The position numbers and the translations under genes are program-made. Positions 34,609 to 63,552 of a stretch of 64,000 bases of DNA are shown one piece after another; the first letter of the stretch is position 1; the number at the start of each line of letters is the position of its first letter. This stretch comes from Beverwykella pulmonaria (taxonomy: Eukaryota; Ascomycota; Dothideomycetes; Pleosporales; Melanommataceae): positions 1,805,552 to 1,869,551 of the forward strand of contig BCHH01000005.1 in assembly GCA_001599595.1 (NCBI GenBank). Reading direction: 5' to 3'. The notes under the pieces were generated by a model. The model was not told the origin of the DNA. It was given only the letters and a program-made list of their open reading frames with translations, and did no database searches.

Positions 34609-36438
34609 GTTTGGCGGATTGATTGGAGGAATTGTAGGGATGGGGGCTTCGACATGTTGGGAAATTCTTACTCCATTTGGTCACCATGCTTACTTGACAG
34701 CTATTTGGTAACAAATCTCAAGAAACTTTATGGCTTGGTTGCTGATTACGACCTACTAGCATTCGAAGGTATACGTATAAACCCTTTCTTAAGGAAATAG
34801 AGCTAATTAAGGGCATTAGTACAGGAAGGAACGAGAGAGGAAGCAAGGAGTGATTACCCACCTCCTAATTTCGAGAGAGAGACTAAAACGATAAGAACAG
34901 CCTAACATAGTGGTCATGTATGTGCCAGCATTGATTTTGAATGGGTAAAGATTCTTGCTATCACCTCCTATTCCCAAAAGGTCGCCGGTAAAAGTGATAA
35001 GCGCTACAAATTACCGAAAAGAAATTACGAAATTCCTGTATACAGCTATGCCAAAGTGAGCTTGTAAGATCTGCGCCGCAACAAAAGATATATTTCATAT
35101 CCTAGTGAACAGCTAGGAGTGTTGAATCTTTAGCGAGGCCAGAATACCCCAAGATCGTATTAAGGTTTAAAAGCAAGGACGCCTTTAATCGTAGATTTTG
35201 ATAGGCTTATCTGGTATATTTTATCTTCTATTGATGTGAATGATAAACTGCAAAAAAGTGGTGTTCCGTGGGGCGTAAAAAAAAGCGCTAGGCTAGACCG
35301 CATTCTTAGCAGATGACTCAAAGTACAAAATGTAACACCTGTGTAGTTCAAGATCACAACTATCCTGCTTGCATGACAATCGCTAAGTCTTCATACGATG
35401 CGTGTACTATTAGAGCTCCTCCGCACCATTCTCGAATATGCGGAAAGCATCTACGCAGTGCCAGAGATTTTGAGTTTAAGACTTGTCTGCAGTACGTCCT
35501 CATTTCTCCATATACGCAGCGTCCTCTAATCTCAATCCCAAGGGCTCTTCAACGACGAGGTTCTGCCCATAATCTCCACCAGTCGACGTTCTGTACACGA
35601 CAAATGTGTCTTCAACACTGACTCGTGGAAGCAAATCCCGTGGAGTCTGAGGTACCAATACATCCAGTACAAGATGGCGAAATTTAAAACTGAGCCGAGC
35701 TTATTCTCCTACCTTTTCCTCATAAACCATATTGTATCGGCTTAGAATCTACCATATCTTGCAGATTTTGCCTCTGAAAGTAGAAATATTGTGGGCCCTA
35801 AACCCATGTTTCGAACACAATTCTGGCAAAGCTGTAGGATTAATAAGTACTATCTGTACCTATTAACATTTCTTACTGTTTACTTCCTAACTGTTTCGCT
35901 CCGCCTTAGTATATCCTACCGTTGCCTTCGATTCTACTCCTGCGAACTTGATACAGGTAGGCGTATAGGGGCTACACGCTTTGCCAAACACTAGGAGAAG
36001 ACTAGCCTGTCAGCAAAACGTACCTCTGTGCCTTGTTCGGACCACAATATAGTGTGATAGTGTATATAACAGTATACCTTCGCTTGGAGGCTGTTATGGT
36101 CTGATTCTGAGCTTCGGACAAACCCAAAATTTCCCAGTCACAGCGTGTTGAAGTGTATTCTTTTTCCATGGTAATCGGATCTGAGTTGGAATCATAAGCT
36201 GGAAAAGTTTACTAGAGCAATTGACAGCTTCAAGAAGAGCACTGCAACATGCGCGGCGTGTTCCAGCCTTCTCATTGCAATAGAGCTCGAAGGATGTGGC
36301 GCAGCGTGGCGCAGCGTGGCTATGCAAAGCCTTGCCATGACATACCTCCAAGGTATAAGTACTGCACCTCTTCGAGCAAGAGAGCATACATTAATTCTCC
36401 TCTCTTACACCTCTCCCACAACAACGGGTTGCTGCAAA
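34609..36438. other. AT-rich intergenic stretch with a possible decayed coding fragment
   Basis: This 1.8-kb region is AT-rich and stop-rich on both strands. One short segment, about 35547-35680 plus, reads GLFNDEVLPIISTSRRSVHD then KCVFNTDSWKQIPWSLR and looks like a fragment of a former gene. I do not recognise its family. Bases 36301-36320 contain a tandem duplicate of GCAGCGTGGC. Bases just before 36439 probably hold the leader of the gasdermin-like gene, possibly with an intron starting at GTATAAGT near 36354. Confidence 0.4.
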
Positions 36439-37263
36439 ATGTCTCCAAATATTCTACTTTCCCAGTTTTTCCTTCCCGTATCAGCCGTCAGCCTTGGACG
36501 CTTCGTTACCAGCTTAGACGACCCTCTTCAAGACTTCCACGATCCTATACACACTACTGGTCCCGTGGTCATTGAGAATTTCCAGGCCCAGTATCATAGT
36601 TTTCAACACTCTGTCAAGCATCGAAGTGTGGCATCACAGCTTACCACCTTCCTTTCCTCGTCTTTTTCGAAGCGTCTCAAAACGTCAGTTGAGGTTTCGG
36701 CCCATGAGATTAAGACGTATTACTTGAACAATGCCGGGCAATATTTCCGAGATGCAGTACAGTCCAAAGAAACTCGGAAGTGGATTGAAAGAACCATTGA
36801 CGAAGGAGAGGACATTTATGTCATCGTAGCCTGTCACACATTAACCAACGCTCGAATAAGAGAACATATGGGTGATCAAAGCGCCACTGCCGGAAACTTG
36901 ACGATACCTGTGTCAACAGCGCTGACAGCTTCGGGCGTAGTTGTACCGGTCAACATTGGGGACCCTGGGCTCAGTGGCTTTCACGGCCATTCAGAGAACG
37001 AACAAAGACAATTCACAGCACCAGGCGAACAAATATTTGCAGTACAATATCGCAAGGTTTGCTGGAGGTGGTTTTCAAGCAATAAGGTAGATAAGATGAC
37101 GCTTGCGAAGAAAGCAGGGTGGGAAAGATACGATAGGCTAAGGGATATCGGGACCGAGGCTGAAGACATGATTGAAGTGGAGCTAGAAGATGAGATGGCA
37201 TTGGAAAGAGACCATGACGAATGCGTCGTGGAGTCTGGGGAGGTTTTCGTCTCAACTGCATAA
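36439..37263 (+). CDS. Gasdermin-like pore-forming cell-death effector (predicted)
   Basis: Single exon of 274 residues from the ATG at 36439 (MSPNILLSQFF); the frame is open further upstream but only with GTG or ATG codons in non-conserved sequence. No signal peptide or classical membrane helix. The N-terminus (SLGRFVTSLDDPLQDFHDP) is followed by predicted beta-rich sequence. The centre contains a strand IYVIVACHTLTNARI, a variable loop, a second strand GVVVPVN and then APGEQIFAVQYRKV. This strand-loop-strand-PG-strand layout is what gasdermin N-domains show around their long membrane-inserting hairpins. The last 40 residues are strongly acidic. Length matches fungal gasdermin-like proteins (about 250-280). 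The next gene, same strand, 644 bp downstream, encodes a CHAT caspase-like protease, and such gasdermin/protease pairing is known in fungi. Assignment rests on layout, length and context, not on a profile search. Confidence 0.6.
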   Translation: MSPNILLSQFFLPVSAVSLGRFVTSLDDPLQDFHDPIHTTGPVVIENFQAQYHSFQHSVKHRSVASQLTTFLSSSFSKRLKTSVEVSAHEIKTYYLNNAGQYFRDAVQSKETRKWIERTIDEGEDIYVIVACHTLTNARIREHMGDQSATAGNLTIPVSTALTASGVVVPVNIGDPGLSGFHGHSENEQRQFTAPGEQIFAVQYRKVCWRWFSSNKVDKMTLAKKAGWERYDRLRDIGTEAEDMIEVELEDEMALERDHDECVVESGEVFVSTA

Positions 37264-37907
37264 TTCGCATTTTGACATTTAGTCAATGTTTCGACAGAAA
37301 CACTTTGTAACATTTGCTTAGACAAAGCATGGCAAAGCTGTAAGCTTTACATTATCAGCAAAGGTTAAGAGGGTGAAATGCAGTTTATATTATCGTTGGT
37401 GAATCCTGTTACTGTCTCAACCTTACGGGACCGACTGCTGTGCTTCGAACCATACATGCCTGCCACAGCGCCTTAGTTAGCCGGGCTGCGCCACGTTCGT
37501 CGAGCTAAACTAAATCTCATGACCGGGTCTAATACCGGTACCACAACCCTTCTCTATCATACGGCACCAACTACACCGAAATTCTTATTAACATAGGCAA
37601 CATTAACAGTCTCCTCCGATCTCAACTTACAACACGCTTAACTTATAGGCCATTATTCTGATACTTCTAGCGCCATCATTAACAATTTTCGAGAATTTGC
37701 AACCACCGACCCTGTGTGTGGCTGGGATTACCGGTAATTAAGTGATGCATGCCAAGGCATCCCCCAGTTTATGAATAGGGCCGATTGCCAGAGCAGGTTT
37801 AACACACGCCACGGTTTACCGTACTAGTAAGCTGTAATCTTAAACAGCCTCGTTATAGGTTTTTCAGTTGCCTCTGCATCTCACTTCCTGCAACTTTTTT
37901 CGACAGC
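37264..37907. promoter_or_regulatory. Spacer between gasdermin-like and CHAT genes
   Basis: This 644-bp spacer has no open frame of note. It should carry the terminator region of the gasdermin-like gene and the promoter of the CHAT gene. The sequence just before 37908 is T-rich and ends in a short CGACAGC leader. No shared motif upstream of both genes was identified by eye. Confidence 0.4.
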
Positions 37908-40900
37908 ATGGAAGATAAATTCGATCTCGACACGCACATTCTCCAAAACTTCGCGCTTTTCTCGAGCTTAGCAGCTAACAAAGATGACAGTTTCCGAACA
38001 TCCTTGTATATGCACTACGCTGTGCTAAAATTCAAGTTATTTGAGCGTTGGGGGCGAACAGAAGATATTGAGGAAGCGATTGAGAAGGGGATGCATGCGG
38101 TGAAGGAAACACCAGCAGAGGATAATGCCTATGTCGAAAGATTAAACGGCCTAGGGAACATGTTCGAAAGTCGATACGAACGCCTAGGAATCATGGAGGA
38201 TCTTGAAATGGCGACTCGATTGGCACGCCAGGCCGTTGATATTACGCCCAAAGACTGCCCAGATCTTGCAATCTACCTGAACAACCTTGGAAACAAGCTA
38301 GAACTCAGATACGAATGCACCAGGAAGAAAGAAGATCTTGAGGAGGCAATTCGAATAGCGCGACAAGCCCTCAGTATTCCGACTAGAGACTCATTAGCTC
38401 TAGCAGGGATGCTCAATAATCTAGGGACCAAACTTGAAAACCGATACGAATGCACAGGAAAAATAGAGGACCTTGAAGAGGCGATTCATTTAGCGCAGCA
38501 GGCCATCAAGGCTACGACAGAAGCTCTTCCAGATCTCGCGGCCTGGTTTAACCAAGGAATTCAACACAAAGACCAACGTAAACGTACAGAAAATACAGTG
38601 GACATAGAGGCGAGTCAAGTGGCACAGCAGCCCGATATCCTCATGCCTGAAGATAGTGGAAGTCTTTCAGGGATACTACACAATCTAGGAAATAGACTTG
38701 GTCGCCGATATGAGTTCACAGGGAACATAGGGGACCTCGAAGAGGCAATTCAAGTAGTTAGACAAGCTGTGAGTATCATGCCTGAAGATCATCCAGATCT
38801 AGCAGGGCGGCTTGACAACCTTGGAATTAAACTCAGTCACCGCTACGAACGAACAGGGAGGACAGAAGACCTTGAAGAGTCGATTCAAGTTGCTCAGCAG
38901 GCCATTGACATCACTCTCGATGGCCATATAGACCTAGCAGCCAGGCTAAATAACCTCGGAAATCATCTCTCAAGACGATACAAACGTACAGGGAAGATAG
39001 AAGACCTTGAAGAAGCGATTCGAGTAGCTCAGCAGGCTGTTAACGTCACCCCTGAAGAGCATTCGGATTTTGCAATGTGGCTAAACAACCTGGGAAACAA
39101 ACTTGAAAACCTATACATACGCACAGAAAAGATAGAAGACCTTGAAGAGGCAATTCGAGTATCTCAGCAGGCTGTTGAAATTACGCCTGAAGAGCATCCA
39201 GATCTTCCAATGTGGCTAAACAACCTGGGAAATAAACTTGAAGGACGATACGCACACACAGAGAATATAGAGGACCTTAAAGAGGCAATTCGTATAACTG
39301 AACTAGCTGTCAATCTAACGCCTGAAGGTCATCCAGATCTTGCAGCGAGGTTGAACAATCTTGGAAACAGTTTGGAAAGCCGATATAAGGTTACAAAACA
39401 GATAGAGGACCTTGAAGAGGCAATCCAGTTGACACAACAGGGTATCAGCGTTACGAATGAAAACTCTCCAGACCTTGCACTCTGGTTGAGTAACTTAGGA
39501 AGCAAACTGAAAAGCAGATATGAGCACACGGGAGAGGTGAAGGATCTCGAAGACGCAATCAAGATGACTCAACAAGCTTGGAGATGCGAGAACGCAATTC
39601 CCTTTGTTCGTATAAGTGCCTCTGTTCTCGCTCTCCAGTTGCTCCAGACCCAAGAGGACTTCGAGAGCGCCTATAACCTCTCAGTTGAGACTTTAAGCCT
39701 GCTACACTACGTCCACAACAGGTCTCTAAGCCACGAAGATCAAAAGTACGTCCTCTCGCACTTTTCTGGACTAGCTACATCTGCCTGTTCTCTTGCTCTA
39801 CAAATAGGAAAGGGTCCAGATACAGCCTTAGAGTTGCTAGAGCAAGGGCGCGGAGTCATCCTCCGTCTTCTTTTCAATGACCGAAGCGATACCTCTAAGT
39901 TAAAGGCCACCCATCCCGAGTTGTGGGCCCGATACGAGAGTCTTCGCTTGGAAATAAACCAACCTGTCGAAAATATCAGACAAGATCGCACGCGGAGGAC
40001 TGCCTCAACAAGACGAATAGAAGCAATCACAAAGCTAGAGGAGTGTATACAAGATATCCGGCAGCTTCCCGTGTTCAGTCAGTTTCAGAAAGGCCTCACT
40101 GCCAAGCAGATGCAGGACTGCTCTACGGAAGGCAGCATTATTATAGTCAACGTCACGACTCTCCGGAGCGATGCCATAATCATTACTCCTGGCGCATCTA
40201 AGGTCGTTCCGATTCCCGATTTGAGTGCGCGGCAATCCATGGACTGGACTAATCAGGACCTTACCACTTTATCGAGCGACCGCGGTCGCAAGAACAGAGC
40301 CTACCTAAAGTTCTTGTCGTGGCTCTGGCACGGATGTGTAAAGCCTATCTTTGAAGAGCTTCAGTACCACGTACAGCCTTCGGCGGAAGACCTACCGAGG
40401 GTTTGGTGGATTGGCACCGGCCTTGCTAGTTCCTTTCCCTTCAATTCTGCAGGAGATTTTTCTGCTGGGACGACTGAAAGTGCGTTTTACCGAGCCATTT
40501 CGTCCTATACGCCAACAATCAAAGCCCTTCAATATTCTCGCGAGCTTAGAGGAACCACTCTCTCATCACGCTGCGATTCTTGGAAAGTACTTGTGATAAG
40601 TATGCCTACAACCCCTGGTGTAGGGAGAGTTTTAGCGAGCAGAGAAGAGGCATCTGAGGTTATTGCAGCTCTGGGGGCTTCTGCTTCTGTAGAGGTTCTA
40701 GAGCACCCAGACGTCCCAAGCACCATGATTCAGCTCCAGCAGTGCGACATTGCCCACTTTGCCTGCCACGGGATTTCGGATTCGATAGACCCGTCTAGTA
40801 GTGGTCTAATACTGCAGACCAATGGGACAGTGACTGAAGAGCTGAAGCAGGACATACTGAGCGTTCGCGAGGTATCCCAGGCGCACCTCTCGCAGGCGCA

Positions 40901-41210
40901 GATTGCATATCTCTCTGCCTGCTCAACCGCGCAGAACAGGGCAGAAGAGCTGTCAGACGAAGTGCTCCACGTTGTCAGTGGATTCCAAGTTGCTGGATTC
41001 AGGCATGTAATTGGGTGTCTGTGGCCGTCTGAAGATCAAGTATGCGTAGATATTGCAAAATCTTTTTACTCTGAGCGGAGGAAAGCTGCGATGTACGACG
41101 ACAAAGCCACTGCATTGTCATTACACAAGGCTGTTATGAGGGTTCGAGAAAATCGGGAGTTCTGTAAGCGCCCACTGTTCTGGGCGCAGTATGTGCATTT
41201 TGGGGCGTAA
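37908..41210 (+). CDS. TPR-CHAT protease (caspase-like, NLR-like sensor)
   Basis: Single exon, 1100 residues. Residues 54 to about 546 are eleven tandem TPR-type repeats of 45 residues (two of 44), with consensus LEEAI..AQQAV..TPE..PDLA..LNNLGNKLE.RY..T..IED; repeats 4 and 5 are degenerate. After an alpha-helical linker (about 550-800), the C-terminal CHAT domain shows both catalytic motifs: His954 in HFACHG and Cys1005 in YLSACST. Conserved GFRHVIGCLWPSED follows and the end (LFWAQYVHFGA) is the usual CHAT terminus. CHAT domains are caspase-fold cysteine proteases, and TPR-CHAT proteins resemble NLR-like sensors in which repeats detect a ligand and release protease activity. Its position next to a gasdermin-like gene suggests it cleaves that protein; this is inference. 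The repeat-rich, intronless gene appears intact. Confidence 0.88.
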   Translation: MEDKFDLDTHILQNFALFSSLAANKDDSFRTSLYMHYAVLKFKLFERWGRTEDIEEAIEKGMHAVKETPAEDNAYVERLNGLGNMFESRYERLGIMEDLEMATRLARQAVDITPKDCPDLAIYLNNLGNKLELRYECTRKKEDLEEAIRIARQALSIPTRDSLALAGMLNNLGTKLENRYECTGKIEDLEEAIHLAQQAIKATTEALPDLAAWFNQGIQHKDQRKRTENTVDIEASQVAQQPDILMPEDSGSLSGILHNLGNRLGRRYEFTGNIGDLEEAIQVVRQAVSIMPEDHPDLAGRLDNLGIKLSHRYERTGRTEDLEESIQVAQQAIDITLDGHIDLAARLNNLGNHLSRRYKRTGKIEDLEEAIRVAQQAVNVTPEEHSDFAMWLNNLGNKLENLYIRTEKIEDLEEAIRVSQQAVEITPEEHPDLPMWLNNLGNKLEGRYAHTENIEDLKEAIRITELAVNLTPEGHPDLAARLNNLGNSLESRYKVTKQIEDLEEAIQLTQQGISVTNENSPDLALWLSNLGSKLKSRYEHTGEVKDLEDAIKMTQQAWRCENAIPFVRISASVLALQLLQTQEDFESAYNLSVETLSLLHYVHNRSLSHEDQKYVLSHFSGLATSACSLALQIGKGPDTALELLEQGRGVILRLLFNDRSDTSKLKATHPELWARYESLRLEINQPVENIRQDRTRRTASTRRIEAITKLEECIQDIRQLPVFSQFQKGLTAKQMQDCSTEGSIIIVNVTTLRSDAIIITPGASKVVPIPDLSARQSMDWTNQDLTTLSSDRGRKNRAYLKFLSWLWHGCVKPIFEELQYHVQPSAEDLPRVWWIGTGLASSFPFNSAGDFSAGTTESAFYRAISSYTPTIKALQYSRELRGTTLSSRCDSWKVLVISMPTTPGVGRVLASREEASEVIAALGASASVEVLEHPDVPSTMIQLQQCDIAHFACHGISDSIDPSSSGLILQTNGTVTEELKQDILSVREVSQAHLSQAQIAYLSACSTAQNRAEELSDEVLHVVSGFQVAGFRHVIGCLWPSEDQVCVDIAKSFYSERRKAAMYDDKATALSLHKAVMRVRENREFCKRPLFWAQYVHFGA

Positions 41211-53985: not shown

Positions 53986-55197
53986 GAACCAATATTCTCG
54001 TGGTGCAAAGACTTTTTTGGGTTCAGCGAATTGCATTTTTTTGGCCTCGCTATTTTGCTTGGGCGTTCCGGTTCGAATGTTTAGTGACATGATCACATTG
54101 ACTCGTGGTTAACTTCCTCACGGTGAGTCGATACAAGTGCACAATGAGGGCAATGTACGTTTGTACGCCCAAATATACTAGCTCATTCTTTTCCTGGCTT
54201 ACCTTTCTGCAAGTACAAGGCATGTGGAAAATTTCATTTTGAATTAATATGCATGAATAACTGTATATGCTGCGTCACTCAATCCTGACACTAATTATCT
54301 CAGTTTCCCGTGACATACTCGTCGAATACACAGCTAAATGAGTGACACTTGCGCAGTATCTTCCAATTTTGTTCTGTCTCACCGTTTCTTACATTCCTTA
54401 TTCTGTTACAATGTATATAACATCCCCCACCACGTAGCGAGAAGTACTCCGTAGCGAGAAAATTCACAGGTACTTAGACTTCAAAGTAGTCGACACCGAT
54501 CCACATCTGACTATCTGTGCTGCACCGTTCAGGGTAGCTGCTAGGGATATTCCTCTACCTGCCCAGCGCCGCCTATAGCAAAATTACTAATCTCGTTGTT
54601 GCCTTTGCAGCCTCAAGAGTTATAATAATGCTCTATCGCCAACTTAAAGCCTGACTAGCACGCTAATAGGTCATTATCAGCCCTATGGCGGCTAGAAGAA
54701 GAAGATTCATGCAATGTTGCCACGCTGATCAGTACCTGCTACTAAGTGAGATGACCCTGGTCGTCCAAAACGCCTTCTGCGTATCCACGTAATAATTACA
54801 GTGTAATATAAGTTATGCCTGCTGACAAGCTAAGTCTGTGGCTACAAGTAGTAAGCTTGTGGCGGTACACACGCCCGCTTTGTTTGACGCACTTTGGAGC
54901 TTCGCAGCGCTTAAGGTGCGGCTGAGATGTACAGCCACGTTCAGGTTGCTACGCAGCACCTCAACAGTCTTCAGCCTGATGACTGGCATTGCACCCAGCT
55001 TTACTCTCCATCCCGCTCTACGCTCATCGCCTTTGTTCACACACGACTCGATAGCCTATCCCCTTCGGTGCTGTACAGCCACTCATCTTCTATTGCATAT
55101 GCTGACCAAATAAGTGAATCTTCTTACCAAGCTGCCGCATCAAGCCTCTCATGTCTCGTTCCCACCGCATGCGCCTACCACGCATTCACACAAGTCA
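53986..55197. other. Intergenic, upstream of the NLR gene
   Basis: This 1.2-kb AT-rich stretch contains no supported gene. Short frames at 54838-55113 and 54927-55256 overlap the leader of the NLR gene and have no domain. A short CGTAGCGAGAA repeat occurs near 54433-54460. Confidence 0.45.
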
Positions 55198-58100
55198 ATG
55201 CGTCTTCTAAAGAACAAAGAAGATGGAGAGCTCACGATCATCAGCTTCGACGATAACGCGATACCTCCATATGCGATACTTTCGCACACTTGGGGAGCAG
55301 ATGAAGAGGAGGTGACTTTCGCGGACCTAGAGAAAGGTGAAGGCAAGAACAAGCCTGGCTACGAGAAGATTAGATTCTGCGGAGAACAAGCACAGCATGA
55401 TGGTCTACGGTACTTCTGGATTGACACATGCTGCATTAATAAGGCAAACAAGGCTGAGCTCGCCTTTGCTATTAGGTCAATGTTCCGCTGGTATCGCAAC
55501 GCAGTTCGATGTTATGTTTACCTATCAGATGTTTCGGATGACGCTATTGGCTCTAGTAAAGCAGTAGAGTTATTACACAGGGAGACAGCCTTCCGCAATA
55601 GCAGATGGTTCACCCGTGGCTGGACACTGCAAGAGCTTCTTGCCCCACCATTAGTAGAGTTCTTCTCTAAAGATGGGGAAAAGCTAGGTGATAGATTATC
55701 ACTCATACCACTATTACGGGAAGTCACAGGCATACCTGATTCAGCTTTGCAGGGTGCGCCCTTGTTCGACTTTGATGTTAATGAGCGAATTTCATGGAAC
55801 GAACACCGAACAACAAAAATTCCAGTAGACCGCGCATACTCTCTGATGGGAATTCTCGGCGTCAGTTTGTCTCCGTTCGACGATGAAAGTCCAGCTGAAG
55901 CATTGAAACGACTTACGGATGAGGTCGACAAGCAGAACAAGTGCCTTCAAGACTTGCGCCCTAGTAATCCGCGCGACGATAAGAAGCGGATTGAGGAAAC
56001 AAAGGGTGGCCTTCTGGAGAATGCATACTGCTGGGTCCTAGGAAATGCCAGCTTCCAACAATGGCGTAATGACGCAAACAGCCATCTGCTGTGGGTGAAA
56101 GGCGATCCTGGTAAAGGCAAGACAATGCTGCTCTGCGGCATTATCAACGAACTACAGAAGGCAGCAGGTAACACCGTTACTATCTCGTACTTCTTCTGCC
56201 AAGCAACCGACTCGCGCATCAACAGCGCCACGGCTGTGCTACGAGGGCTATTATACATGCTCTTGAATCAGCAACCCTCACTTGCATCTCGCGTCCGCAG
56301 AAAGTACGATCACGCAGGCAAAGCCCTGTTTGAGGACGCAAATGCCTGTATAGCCTTGACGGAAATCTTCGTGGATGTCCTACAAGATCCAAGCCTACGC
56401 TCAACATATCTGATCATCGACGCGCTTGATGAATGCGTTACTGGGTTACCAAAGCTTTTAGATTTTGTCGCAAAGCAGTCGTTGACGTCTAACTGTGTAA
56501 AATGGATCGTTTCTAGCCGCAACTGGCCTGATATTGAAGCACAGCTAGAGCAGGCAGGACACAAAGTAAGACTAAGCCTTGAGCTGAACGCGAAGTCGGT
56601 CGCTGATGCGGTTGCTGTCTTTACCCAGGAAAAGGTGGACCAGTTAGCACAGAAGAATCGGTATAAAGCAGCGACTCGAGATGCTCTGCTCAAGCACTTG
56701 AAGTTAAACGCGAATGACACCTTCCTCTGGGTAGCTTTGGTGTGCCAAGACCTGAAAGAGACGGCGGACCGGAATGTACTAAAGAAGCTAGCTGCATTCC
56801 CGCCTGGATTAGACCCTTTGTACAAGCGGATGATGCACCAGATGAGCAAATCAGATGACGCCGATAACTGTCGACAGGTGCTGGCTTCAGCTGCGATTCT
56901 GTTTCGACCTGTTACGATATCCGAACTGGTTGTGCTTGTTGGGCAGCTTGAGGAGTTTGTTGATGACCTAGAGTCGATGCGAGAGATTGTTAGCCTTTGT
57001 GGATCATTCCTTACAGTTCAAGAAGACAAGGTCTATTTTGTGCATCAGTCTGCAAAAGACTTTCTCTTTGCAAAGGCGTTTAATGAAGTCTTTCCACAGG
57101 GAACTAAAGATGCTCATCAGGTACTCTTTTTAAAATCGCTGGCAATTCTGTCTGGGACATTGCACAGGGATATGTACAGGCTAAAAGCTCTAGGATTTCC
57201 TGTTGCGAACGTTAAACCGCCTGATGTAGACCCATTAGCAGTATTACGCTACCCGTGCGTCTACTGGATTGATCATCTACACGACTCAGAACTTAAGTTT
57301 TCAGCAAACAGTGTTGGCGACCTGCAGACTATTAGCGTAGCCGACGAATTCCTAAGAAAGAAGTTCCTCTACTGGCTAGAGGGGCTCAGTCTCTGCAAGA
57401 GTATGCCAAAAGGTATACTCTCTATGGCTAAGCTGCAATCACTTGTCCATGTATGTTAAAGATAGGCAACATGTAGACTATTTGCATGCTGACAAGGACA
57501 AGGGAACAGGACACCCAGATCCTCTCAGATCGCTTGTCAACGATGCCTATAGGTTCATTATGTATCACAAAGGGGCGATTGAGAGTTACCCTCTTCAAAC
57601 ATATGCATCTGCGCTGTTGTTTAGTCCAAGAAGTAGTCTGATTAGGCAGCAATTCCAATACGAAAATCCAGAACGAATCACGATTAAGCCAGCCATGAGC
57701 GATGCTTGGAGCGCGTGCCTACAGACGCTCGAGGGCCATAGCAGCGACGTCAACTCAGTGGCCTTCTCTCACGACTCGACCCGGCTGGCATCGGCGTCGN
57801 NNNNNNNNNNNNNNNNNNNNNNNNNNNNNNNNNNNNNNNNNNNNNNNNNNNNNNNNNNNNNNNNNNNNNNNNNNNNNNNNNNNNNNNNNNNNNNNNNNNG
57901 GGACAGCACAGTCAAGATATGGGATGCGAGCAGTGGCGCGTGCCTGCAGACACTTGAGGTTGGCAGAGTGCTCAGAAAGCTATCATTTGACACCACTGGT
58001 TTGTATATTCATACTGAAATTGGTACTATCAGCATGAGTGCAACATCAAATGCCATAGAGCCTCAGAATCCCAGATATCAAGGCCTAGGTTTGAGTTTAG

Positions 58101-61068: not shown

Positions 61069-63552
61069 ATGTCATTCGAGTACTCAAGCGAATGGAAGGA
61101 CGAGCTATATCCTGCCACTTGGCAAACGAAGCGTCCCGACGTATCAAACCCTGATACTGTTGATCCCAAGGACCTTACTGGTTACGTAGTACAGCGCCTG
61201 GAGGAATACAAAGACTGTGGATATGCTGGCGATGAACTCTGGTACATTCTCACAGACGATTTTGATGGATGGACTGAGCCTATTTGGAAGAAAGTGTTTG
61301 ATGACGCCGTCAAGGTGTTCCGAAGCTTTCTCCGCAAAAACGGAGTGTTTGTAGAGCTAGAGAAAGGCCCCAACACCGCCCCAAAGAGCATGGCACTCAT
61401 GCTCGCGAGGGATAAGCCATCACTCAGACTGCCACAACAGAGTGAAGATGTGGAGATGACCGATGCCGTCAATATAAAGAGCAAGTTACTCTCTTTCATA
61501 CCATGTACACCACGTAGACAGCAAACTAACAACGTCACAGGCCCGAGGAAAGCAGTAGATGCGTTCAAGGCCGGAATCAAGTACAGGCCCCCACTTCCTC
61601 TGGTAAAATCGAGCGGCGCGGACTGGGAATTTCAGCCACATCCGGATCTATACAACGCACTCGCGCCGAACCTTCTCGAGCATTACACCTACTACAAGAA
61701 AAATAAAGTTGACAAGACATACGCCCCCACCTATTTCTATCTAGGGGGAGCCGGAACTGGAAAGTCAAGGCATGGCTCAGAGTTCGCCTCTTCGGTCCAA
61801 GAAGCAATTAAGGCCGATACTAAACTCCACGCTGAGTTCCACGCTAAGCTCCACGCTGAGCTCCACGCTGAGACCCATGGTGGACCCCGCACTGATGACG
61901 ACTACTGCAACCGGTGCGGCGTTTACAATGAGCTCTCGCAGAGATTGAAAAAAGCCTTCGTATTTCATGTTTCGTTTGAGAACGGAACATCCTTGCGCAA
62001 CGAAGAAAAGAGTAACCTGTTGAATGCGGTCGGTGCAAGAATGCTAGTACAGCTACTTCAACAGAATATTCATTCTGTCCGCGAAAAATACATCGCAAAC
62101 CCTGTCGACATTTTCCAACTTGTCGCGGCAGCCGAAAATGTTGACTTGTGCAACGATTTCACTGGAATTTTGGTTGTTGACGGAATTCAAAAGGCTAGTA
62201 CGGGGGACGGTGAGGGGAAAAATAAAAGCAGTGGCTTTTATTCATTCTTGACTGACATCAGCGATTTAAGTATAATGCCATACGAGGAAGGAATGACACA
62301 ACCACCCTTTATTATCAGTTGCGTCACTGCAACCTTCTTTGGGCCTGCAGACGAATTTTTAGCTGAGACGCACCGCAAGCGCGTATTTCTACCACTCAAC
62401 TTGTTAGATATGCCGACTTGGAAGGGAACCAACTTAAACGTTTTTAACAATGATCCTGGCACCCGTCTTCTCGTGAAAGACGTTGGTGGGCATGCGCGGG
62501 CGATAGAAGCAATTGCTGACGAGCTGGCTGTGTATGAAAATGGGTTCCAACGAAATATCACTGAATTGGCTAATGCTGTCTTCCTCAAATTATCGGACCG
62601 CTATAGCGAAACTATCCTAGTTATAGGAGGTGCTCTCCTCTCTGTCGTACAGTGTATCCTCTCTAGGCAACTAATTCGTCTCCGAGAGTTTATCCCTAAC
62701 TCGACCTTGCGGTGGGAGCATATTATAGCGCCTGGACTTCTCTGGTTTGAGAAAGTTTCTGGTAACCAATTTACTTATGACGCAGAGGGGTACCTTATAG
62801 CACCATACATGTGGCTCTGGTTGTTTGCTAGGGTGCCACTCCAAGTAGATAAGCACCTTCACCAGTTCCTAACAGAATGGGAATTTAACGATTACCAAAA
62901 ACTTCTCTACCTTGAAACAGGTAAAGGAATTACTGGAAATATTACTTGGCAAGACTTTGAGACATTCTGTAGCTACTTTCGCATTTTGCGGTCGCTATGG
63001 TTTAAAGAAGGAGAGGAAGTGGAGTTCAAGCGCTTGCACGAAGGATGCCAAAAATTACGAGATGATGCAAACACGAAAGTGGTAAATCGACGCCTTAGTT
63101 ACGCAGCAGCGGCCTACCAGTATAGAACTGAGGCGACGTCGGCCAAAGATGTTGTTACCAAACATGACGGAACTTTAGACGCGGAATGGCAATTATACCT
63201 CCTCAACGGTCAATCAGCGTCGGCTGGCGATTTCTTCCTTAGTGTCCAGACTTATACACGGCAATTCCCACCATCTTCGCCTGATCATTACGAAATTGTG
63301 CGCGAGGTAGGACAGTCTAAATTTGTCAATGGGAAGTTGAGCCAGAAAAAGTACAATGAGGAAAGAAATAAGTCTGCTGGGCCAACCGATTTCTTTATAT
63401 TGTACACAACAGCCGAAACTCCGGATGACATTGTCTTGCCAGACCGGTCTGGGCTTGTTGATAAGAGTAGCTGGAACTCCTATTTTGGTCCATTTGCCGG
63501 TCGTGCCTTCCGGTACTCCTGCTCTCGCTCCCAACATGAAGAACCGCAATAG
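61069..63552 (+). CDS. Crinkler/RHS-like P-loop NTPase protein
   Basis: Single exon, 827 residues, no signal peptide. The N-terminal part (1-200) includes an LTGYVVQRLEEYKDCGYAGD helical region. A P-loop NTPase follows, with Walker A GGAGTGKS (226-233) and Walker B GILVVDG (366-372, Asp371), and the segment FVFHVSFENGTSL between them. Around residues 460-500 the motif LLVKDVGGHARAIEAIADEL resembles the sensor/arginine region of these ATPases. The C-terminus (TDFFILYTTAETPDDIVLP, then SYFGPFAGRAF) matches the end of the fungal and oomycete Crinkler-RHS type, in which an NTPase is joined to a nuclease-like domain. A four-copy 12-nt tandem repeat lies between the Walker motifs. Family members have been linked to effector or conflict functions; the role here is inferred only. 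Confidence 0.65.
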   Translation: MSFEYSSEWKDELYPATWQTKRPDVSNPDTVDPKDLTGYVVQRLEEYKDCGYAGDELWYILTDDFDGWTEPIWKKVFDDAVKVFRSFLRKNGVFVELEKGPNTAPKSMALMLARDKPSLRLPQQSEDVEMTDAVNIKSKLLSFIPCTPRRQQTNNVTGPRKAVDAFKAGIKYRPPLPLVKSSGADWEFQPHPDLYNALAPNLLEHYTYYKKNKVDKTYAPTYFYLGGAGTGKSRHGSEFASSVQEAIKADTKLHAEFHAKLHAELHAETHGGPRTDDDYCNRCGVYNELSQRLKKAFVFHVSFENGTSLRNEEKSNLLNAVGARMLVQLLQQNIHSVREKYIANPVDIFQLVAAAENVDLCNDFTGILVVDGIQKASTGDGEGKNKSSGFYSFLTDISDLSIMPYEEGMTQPPFIISCVTATFFGPADEFLAETHRKRVFLPLNLLDMPTWKGTNLNVFNNDPGTRLLVKDVGGHARAIEAIADELAVYENGFQRNITELANAVFLKLSDRYSETILVIGGALLSVVQCILSRQLIRLREFIPNSTLRWEHIIAPGLLWFEKVSGNQFTYDAEGYLIAPYMWLWLFARVPLQVDKHLHQFLTEWEFNDYQKLLYLETGKGITGNITWQDFETFCSYFRILRSLWFKEGEEVEFKRLHEGCQKLRDDANTKVVNRRLSYAAAAYQYRTEATSAKDVVTKHDGTLDAEWQLYLLNGQSASAGDFFLSVQTYTRQFPPSSPDHYEIVREVGQSKFVNGKLSQKKYNEERNKSAGPTDFFILYTTAETPDDIVLPDRSGLVDKSSWNSYFGPFAGRAFRYSCSRSQHEEPQ
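61825..61872 (+). repeat. In-frame 12-nt tandem repeat in the RHS-like gene
   Basis: Four consecutive units close to CTCCACGCTGAG encode LHAE, FHAK, LHAE and LHAE (residues 253-268), followed by a partial unit (THAE-like). The repeat keeps frame and lengthens a loop between Walker A and Walker B. Such repeats expand and contract easily and could vary between strains. Confidence 0.9.

Follow-up and report, generated by a model that had tools for sequence, protein, structure and literature searches.

A gasdermin-like gene next to a TPR-CHAT protease gene in Beverwykella pulmonaria: a candidate two-gene cell-death switch

Does a small gene upstream of a protease gene in the ascomycete Beverwykella pulmonaria encode a gasdermin, and do the two genes work together in cell death? 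The pair lies in a window of 64,000 nucleotides, the whole stretch of DNA analysed (assembly GCA_001599595.1, contig BCHH01000005.1, positions 1,805,552 to 1,869,551), which belongs to a genome of 45.6 Mb in 31 contigs. A preliminary description of the window had proposed a two-component module of a gasdermin-like effector and a TPR-CHAT protease. The folds, the catalytic pair, the linkage of the two genes and their co-divergence support that proposal within the limits of sequence data and structure prediction, and the pair is very probably a fungal gasdermin with its dedicated TPR-CHAT protease, forming a two-gene death switch. Both frames were found where they had been placed, on the same strand, and neither needs an intron. 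The features of the locus are as follows (window positions, all on the forward strand).

36439..37263, forward: gasdermin-like gene, 274 amino acids plus stop, one open frame (open reading frame, homologues, fold prediction)
36439..37074, forward: putative pore-forming domain, residues 1-212 (fold prediction and homology; border at 212 set by us)
37075..37260, forward: C-terminal tail, residues 213-274, putative inhibitory or cleaved segment (column counts; role proposed)
37264..37907, forward: intergenic stretch of 644 bp between the two frames
37908..41210, forward: TPR-CHAT protease gene, 1100 amino acids plus stop, one open frame (open reading frame, Pfam, predicted fold)
37986..39704, forward: TPR superhelix, residues ~27-599 (Pfam, profile repeats, predicted fold)
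40311..41204, forward: CHAT domain, residues 802-1099 (Pfam PF12770)
40767..40769, forward: codon of catalytic His954, in HFACHG (alignment column)
40920..40922, forward: codon of catalytic Cys1005, in LSACST (alignment column)

The two proteins of the pair

Homologues were tabulated for the 274-residue protein (P0001; best 120 of 140 matches at E ≤ 0.01) and for the 1100-residue protein (P0002; best 120 of 1785). The small frame was accepted as a real gene because of its 140 homologues, most of the 120 listed being close to 274 residues long, and because M1 is unchanged throughout 90 aligned homologues. The species names read among the listed relatives are fungi throughout, in genera which we take to be ascomycetes without exception. 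Searches of the PDB with the sequence and with its profile returned zero chains at E ≤ 10, and the Pfam family DEAD_assoc (E 0.049) failed the cut-off and was rejected.

The preliminary description had seen the layout of a gasdermin N-domain in the small protein, a claim that a predicted structure unlike such domains would contradict. Foldseek and VIA searches with the predicted model both ranked gasdermins first, with RCD-1 at the top, at a mean pLDDT of only 58.8; the predicted fold was therefore closest to gasdermins. Bacterial gasdermin folds also resemble the model and rank mostly lower. A feature of bacterial gasdermins (bGSDM) is a palmitoylated N-terminal cysteine; no such residue was found in the 274-residue protein, whose earliest cysteine is residue 132. 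Residues 1-26 are rather hydrophobic by eye. A protease gene within 10 kb, a criterion for fungal gasdermins, is present in the form of the CHAT gene at 644 bp, and linkage recurs in relatives. Judged by homology and modelled fold, the protein is probably a fungal gasdermin-like protein and a probable membrane-pore protein. It could instead have a gasdermin-like or other MACPF/CDC-like fold, form no pores and regulate or inhibit the CHAT protein, but this is very unlikely: both fold searches ranked gasdermins over cytolysins, and tested fungal gasdermins provide a precedent in the excerpts consulted of three articles (PMC10197012, PMC12881547, PMC10989679; statements on published systems below likewise follow excerpts of the articles cited).

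The C-terminal tail (residues 213-274) comes after the final long strand of the model. Across P0001 and its 120 listed homologues (121 rows), the rows with a letter retained W228 in 118 of 118, Y231 in 115 of 118, R235 in 116 of 118, D243 in 112 of 117 and L249 in 116 of 117. These columns, of which W228, R235 and L249 are near-invariant, indicate that the part from W228 to L249 is under constraint; the final 14 residues are more variable. In HET-Q1, a cut at F238 removes 40 residues (PMC10197012, PMC12881547, PMC10989679). Being conserved, and given this precedent, the tail of about 62 residues is by analogy a natural candidate for an inhibitory, cleaved piece. The cleavage site itself cannot be named; tentative candidates are three conserved hydrophobic residues, L237, L249 and L255.

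In the larger protein, PF12770 (CHAT) matched residues 802-1099 (E 4.6e-34) and TPR_10 matched six stretches. The TPR part has a period of 45 residues, with 10 repeats by profile and 11 register hits. The predicted structure places a TPR superhelix ahead of CHAT, as in a TPR-CHAT fold, and the nearest solved structures by VIA Z are those of the bacterial TPR-CHAT protein Csx29. By sequence, the nine rows of a PDB search were matches in the TPR part to designed proteins and kinesin light chains; five weak rows for residues 765-1100 (best E 0.0046, a leucine-rich-repeat protein) were judged to be chance. Across P0002 and its 120 listed relatives, the histidine column holds 120 His and one gap, and the cysteine column 117 Cys and four Ser. 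Both residues are intact in all 19 gasdermin-linked relatives described below. The earlier claim of a TPR-CHAT protein with intact His954 and Cys1005 thus agrees with the domain matches and with the conservation of both motifs, and the protein is a predicted endopeptidase, a TPR-CHAT caspase-like protease with His and Cys present.

Concerted evolution of the TPR repeats was rejected for the window protein, with 0.60 inside the protein against 0.64 in comparison with P0163 of Zopfia. As a separate observation, nine of 25 CHAT proteins compared (P0125, P0127, P0133, P0139, P0143, P0158, P0168, P0180 and P0192) have TPR repeats more alike among themselves than to those of the closest other protein, mean within-protein identity being highest in P0133 (0.78). 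Such internally alike repeats resemble the high-internal-conservation repeats of fungal NLRs.

Linkage in other fungi and in the same genome

Linkage in relatives was read from gene numbers and from identical contig sizes between the two homologue tables. For 19 of the 120 gasdermin rows listed, a listed CHAT row has a contig of identical size. All 19 belong to the 66 gasdermin rows whose contigs measure at least 5 kb, the other 47 having no such CHAT match, and their CHAT rows rank from 5 to 70, with none at 71-120. Gasdermin and CHAT gene numbers are consecutive in seven of the 19 (gasdermin first).

Glutinoglossum: FGG08_004320/4321
Nannizzia: MGYG_02591/02590
Myotisia: FQN57_004573/4572
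Penicillium: N7507_003716/3717, N7479_000695/694 and VN97_g390/g389
Aspergillus felis: CNMCM5623_004430/4429

For Zopfia, Lindgomyces and Xylogone, linkage was read from matching contig sizes. The preliminary description would have been contradicted by absence of the CHAT gene from all relatives carrying the small gene; consecutive numbers are instead kept in seven other genomes. Pairwise distances of the gasdermins and of the CHAT proteins (last 420 residues) were correlated over 20 pairs, the 19 and that of the window (r 0.83; 0 of 9999 permutations as high), a correlation that shared species descent would likewise yield. In one relative, P0122 (3922-bp contig), a TPR-like segment resembling by eye the repeats of the CHAT partner stands in frame before the predicted start, perhaps through recombination or a wrong gene model.

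A protein search of the B. pulmonaria genome found three gasdermin copies: that of the window, an interrupted one on contig C3 and a divergent one on contig C2. Next to the C2 copy (L014:8341-9213, 290 amino acids), at a distance of 708 bp and in divergent orientation, is a TPR-CHAT gene of 1159 amino acids.

L014:4153-9213, divergent transcription: second gasdermin-CHAT pair, genes 708 bp apart

The C2 gasdermin matched the family profile at 1.6e-17 (six-frame pieces searched), and its BLASTP match to the window gasdermin, with 20% identity, spans residues 1-207 and ends before the tail. Both pairs are intact and their gasdermin tails are unrelated, which suggests separate circuits. A homologue search with the C2 gasdermin gave five relatives at E ≤ 0.001, none bridging to named gasdermins, and Pfam gave zero families at E ≤ 0.01. 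The C3 copy (L015:5236-6312) is about 50% identical to the window gasdermin and is spread over three frames with stops and frame changes (introns possible); the closest of the 12 CHAT matches in the genome lies about 226 kb off. A search for S8 proteases found 23 stretches in the genome, and each of the three gasdermin copies is more than 10 kb away from all of them.

Some observations run against the linkage or would fit other readings of the pair. Listed CHAT and gasdermin numbers are non-adjacent in P. cosmopolitanum, Trichoglossum (two records) and Wetmoreana, and lie 23 apart in P. riverlandense; in these cases the partner is possibly outside the listed rows. A HET-NACHT gene about 14 kb off in the same window could mean that the adjacency is due to chance or to an island effect, fast-evolving immune families gathering in the same regions. 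This is extremely unlikely, given the consecutive numbers in other genomes and the fact that two of the three gasdermins have one of the 12 CHAT matches less than 10 kb away (P 6.5e-5 for two or more, in a simulation with uniform positions that ignores islands). Finally, RCD-1, the closest fold, works without control by cleavage (PMC10197012, PMC12881547, PMC10989679), and the window gasdermin might likewise act on meeting a divergent allele, without its neighbour's cut, the CHAT gene being a linked but separate immune gene. We consider this unlikely, since CHAT linkage and co-divergence in several fungi argue for the pair and the conserved tail would be left without an evident use.

In the two-gene death switch that we favour, the steps of trigger, cut and pore are modelled on the known family. 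The gasdermin would be made silent, its tail restraining the pore domain. The TPR superhelix would recognise a trigger, e.g. a foreign protein at cell fusion or infection, and recognition would free the caspase-like His954/Cys1005 site. CHAT would then cut the gasdermin tail, and the freed domains would assemble pores in the plasma membrane, so that the fused or infected cell dies.

Elsewhere in the window, the HET-NACHT receptor gene occupies 55114-57459 (PF06985, 2.8e-15; PF05729, 7.9e-16) and is followed by a frame to ~58240 that is WD40-repeat-like by eye; positions 57800-57899 are 100 consecutive N. An open frame of 827 residues at 61069-63552 gave no Pfam family at E ≤ 0.01. A check of the stretch upstream of the gasdermin (34700-36430) for copies gave only three matches elsewhere, all partial and 65-68 bp long.

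Caspase-domain genes beside other CHAT genes

A Pfam scan of 20 frames, hand-picked from the longest around other CHAT genes, revealed genes for C14 caspase-domain proteins. PF00656 was found at 10 places; two of these, in series on contig C1, were counted as one gene, which gives nine genes. Seven of them have a CHAT match less than 10 kb away and are spread over six CHAT loci (L017, L025, L029-L032; genome G000).

C5:788517-790472, C14 gene
C2:4660663-4662225, C14 gene
C15:989158-991587, C14 gene
C4:2334285-2336255, C14 gene
C9:1617151-1619211, C14 gene
C6:1845180-1847207, C14 gene
C6:1852358-1854325, C14 gene

Uniform placement gave an expectation of 0.05 and a maximum of three of nine in 200,000 trials, gene islands and block duplication being ignored. 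The gaps between the stop-to-stop frames of CHAT and C14 genes are 58 bp (C5), 245 bp (C15), 454 bp (C4), 728 bp (C2) and 2847 bp (C9); on C6 a C14 gene stands on each side of a CHAT match that holds two stops (introns possible). SGHG and D[CS]C motifs are present in all seven C14 proteins. Six are built alike: they are 643-806 residues long, keep [HY]xSGHG and D[CS]C intact, have a C-terminal part in common and match one another over at least about 600 residues (BLASTP E 5.7e-18 or lower in all 15 pairs); the seventh (C2, 521 amino acids) matches them weakly.

Among the 12 CHAT matches the neighbour is thus a gasdermin in two and a C14 caspase-domain protein in six. On a 12-row tree of the CHAT domains, which is weak and has five open forks, a C14 partner needs four changes against a shuffled mean of 4.2. 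CHAT domains with the same kind of partner do not group together in the tree, and an exchange of effectors among CHAT genes may therefore have taken place. The solitary CHAT genes L018 and L022 have variant motifs in the His and Cys regions (by eye) and are set apart in the tree. We tentatively read TPR-CHAT as one sensor family in this genome, coupled to gasdermin or to C14 neighbours, with the latter forming a eukaryotic CHAT-to-caspase cascade; this falls a little short of an even chance. CHAT-caspase cascades of bacterial CRISPR systems are comparable. A description of fungal CHAT-C14 neighbourhoods was not found among the titles and opening parts of abstracts listed by literature searches, whose lists were capped, and these neighbourhoods are the most novel observation of this analysis.

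Relation to known systems

About 80% of some 1900 mined fungal gasdermin genes adjoin protease genes, and 17-19% adjoin genes for CHAT proteases (one review gives this for cysteine proteases, CHAT included); the gasdermin of a two-gene cluster in Podospora anserina was activated by the CHAT protease of that cluster, which carries TPRs (PMC10197012, PMC12881547, PMC10989679). The window pair shares with the fungal gasdermin-CHAT clusters (Clave et al. 2022, as excerpted via reviews) a gasdermin beside TPR-CHAT, a short tail and the same proposed mechanism; unlike the functionally tested Podospora pair, it is known here from sequence and predicted structure. HET-Q1/HET-Q2 of P. anserina, as excerpted, is similar in that a protease encoded at the same locus controls a 278-residue gasdermin, from which a tail of about 40 residues is removed, but HET-Q2 belongs to the subtilisin-like serine proteases and the two genes are idiomorphs rather than neighbours in one strain. 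RCD-1-1 and RCD-1-2 of Neurospora crassa, the nearest solved folds, differ in that mixing of two alleles activates them, with no protease (PMC10197012, PMC12881547, PMC10989679). The CHAT protease gene hetB of Aspergillus fumigatus causes heterokaryon incompatibility, with any gasdermin partner still to be tested, and is idiomorphic with a short gene of unassigned function (PMC11138114). Bacterial Csx29 (Craspase) also joins a TPR superhelix to CHAT, but is a member of a CRISPR RNA-guided complex and cleaves Csx30 rather than a gasdermin (PMC11106740).

Cell-death gene pairs of this kind are known from other fungi, and the window pair is a well-preserved case. It adds a well-conserved gasdermin-CHAT clade, whose pairs are numbered consecutively in Penicillium, Aspergillus, Nannizzia, Myotisia and Glutinoglossum. 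The pairs could serve the biochemistry of fungal pyroptosis-like death, the two with unrelated tails allowing a test of cognate specificity. If they are functional modules, the CHAT-C14 neighbourhoods would widen the range of what CHAT sensors control in fungi.
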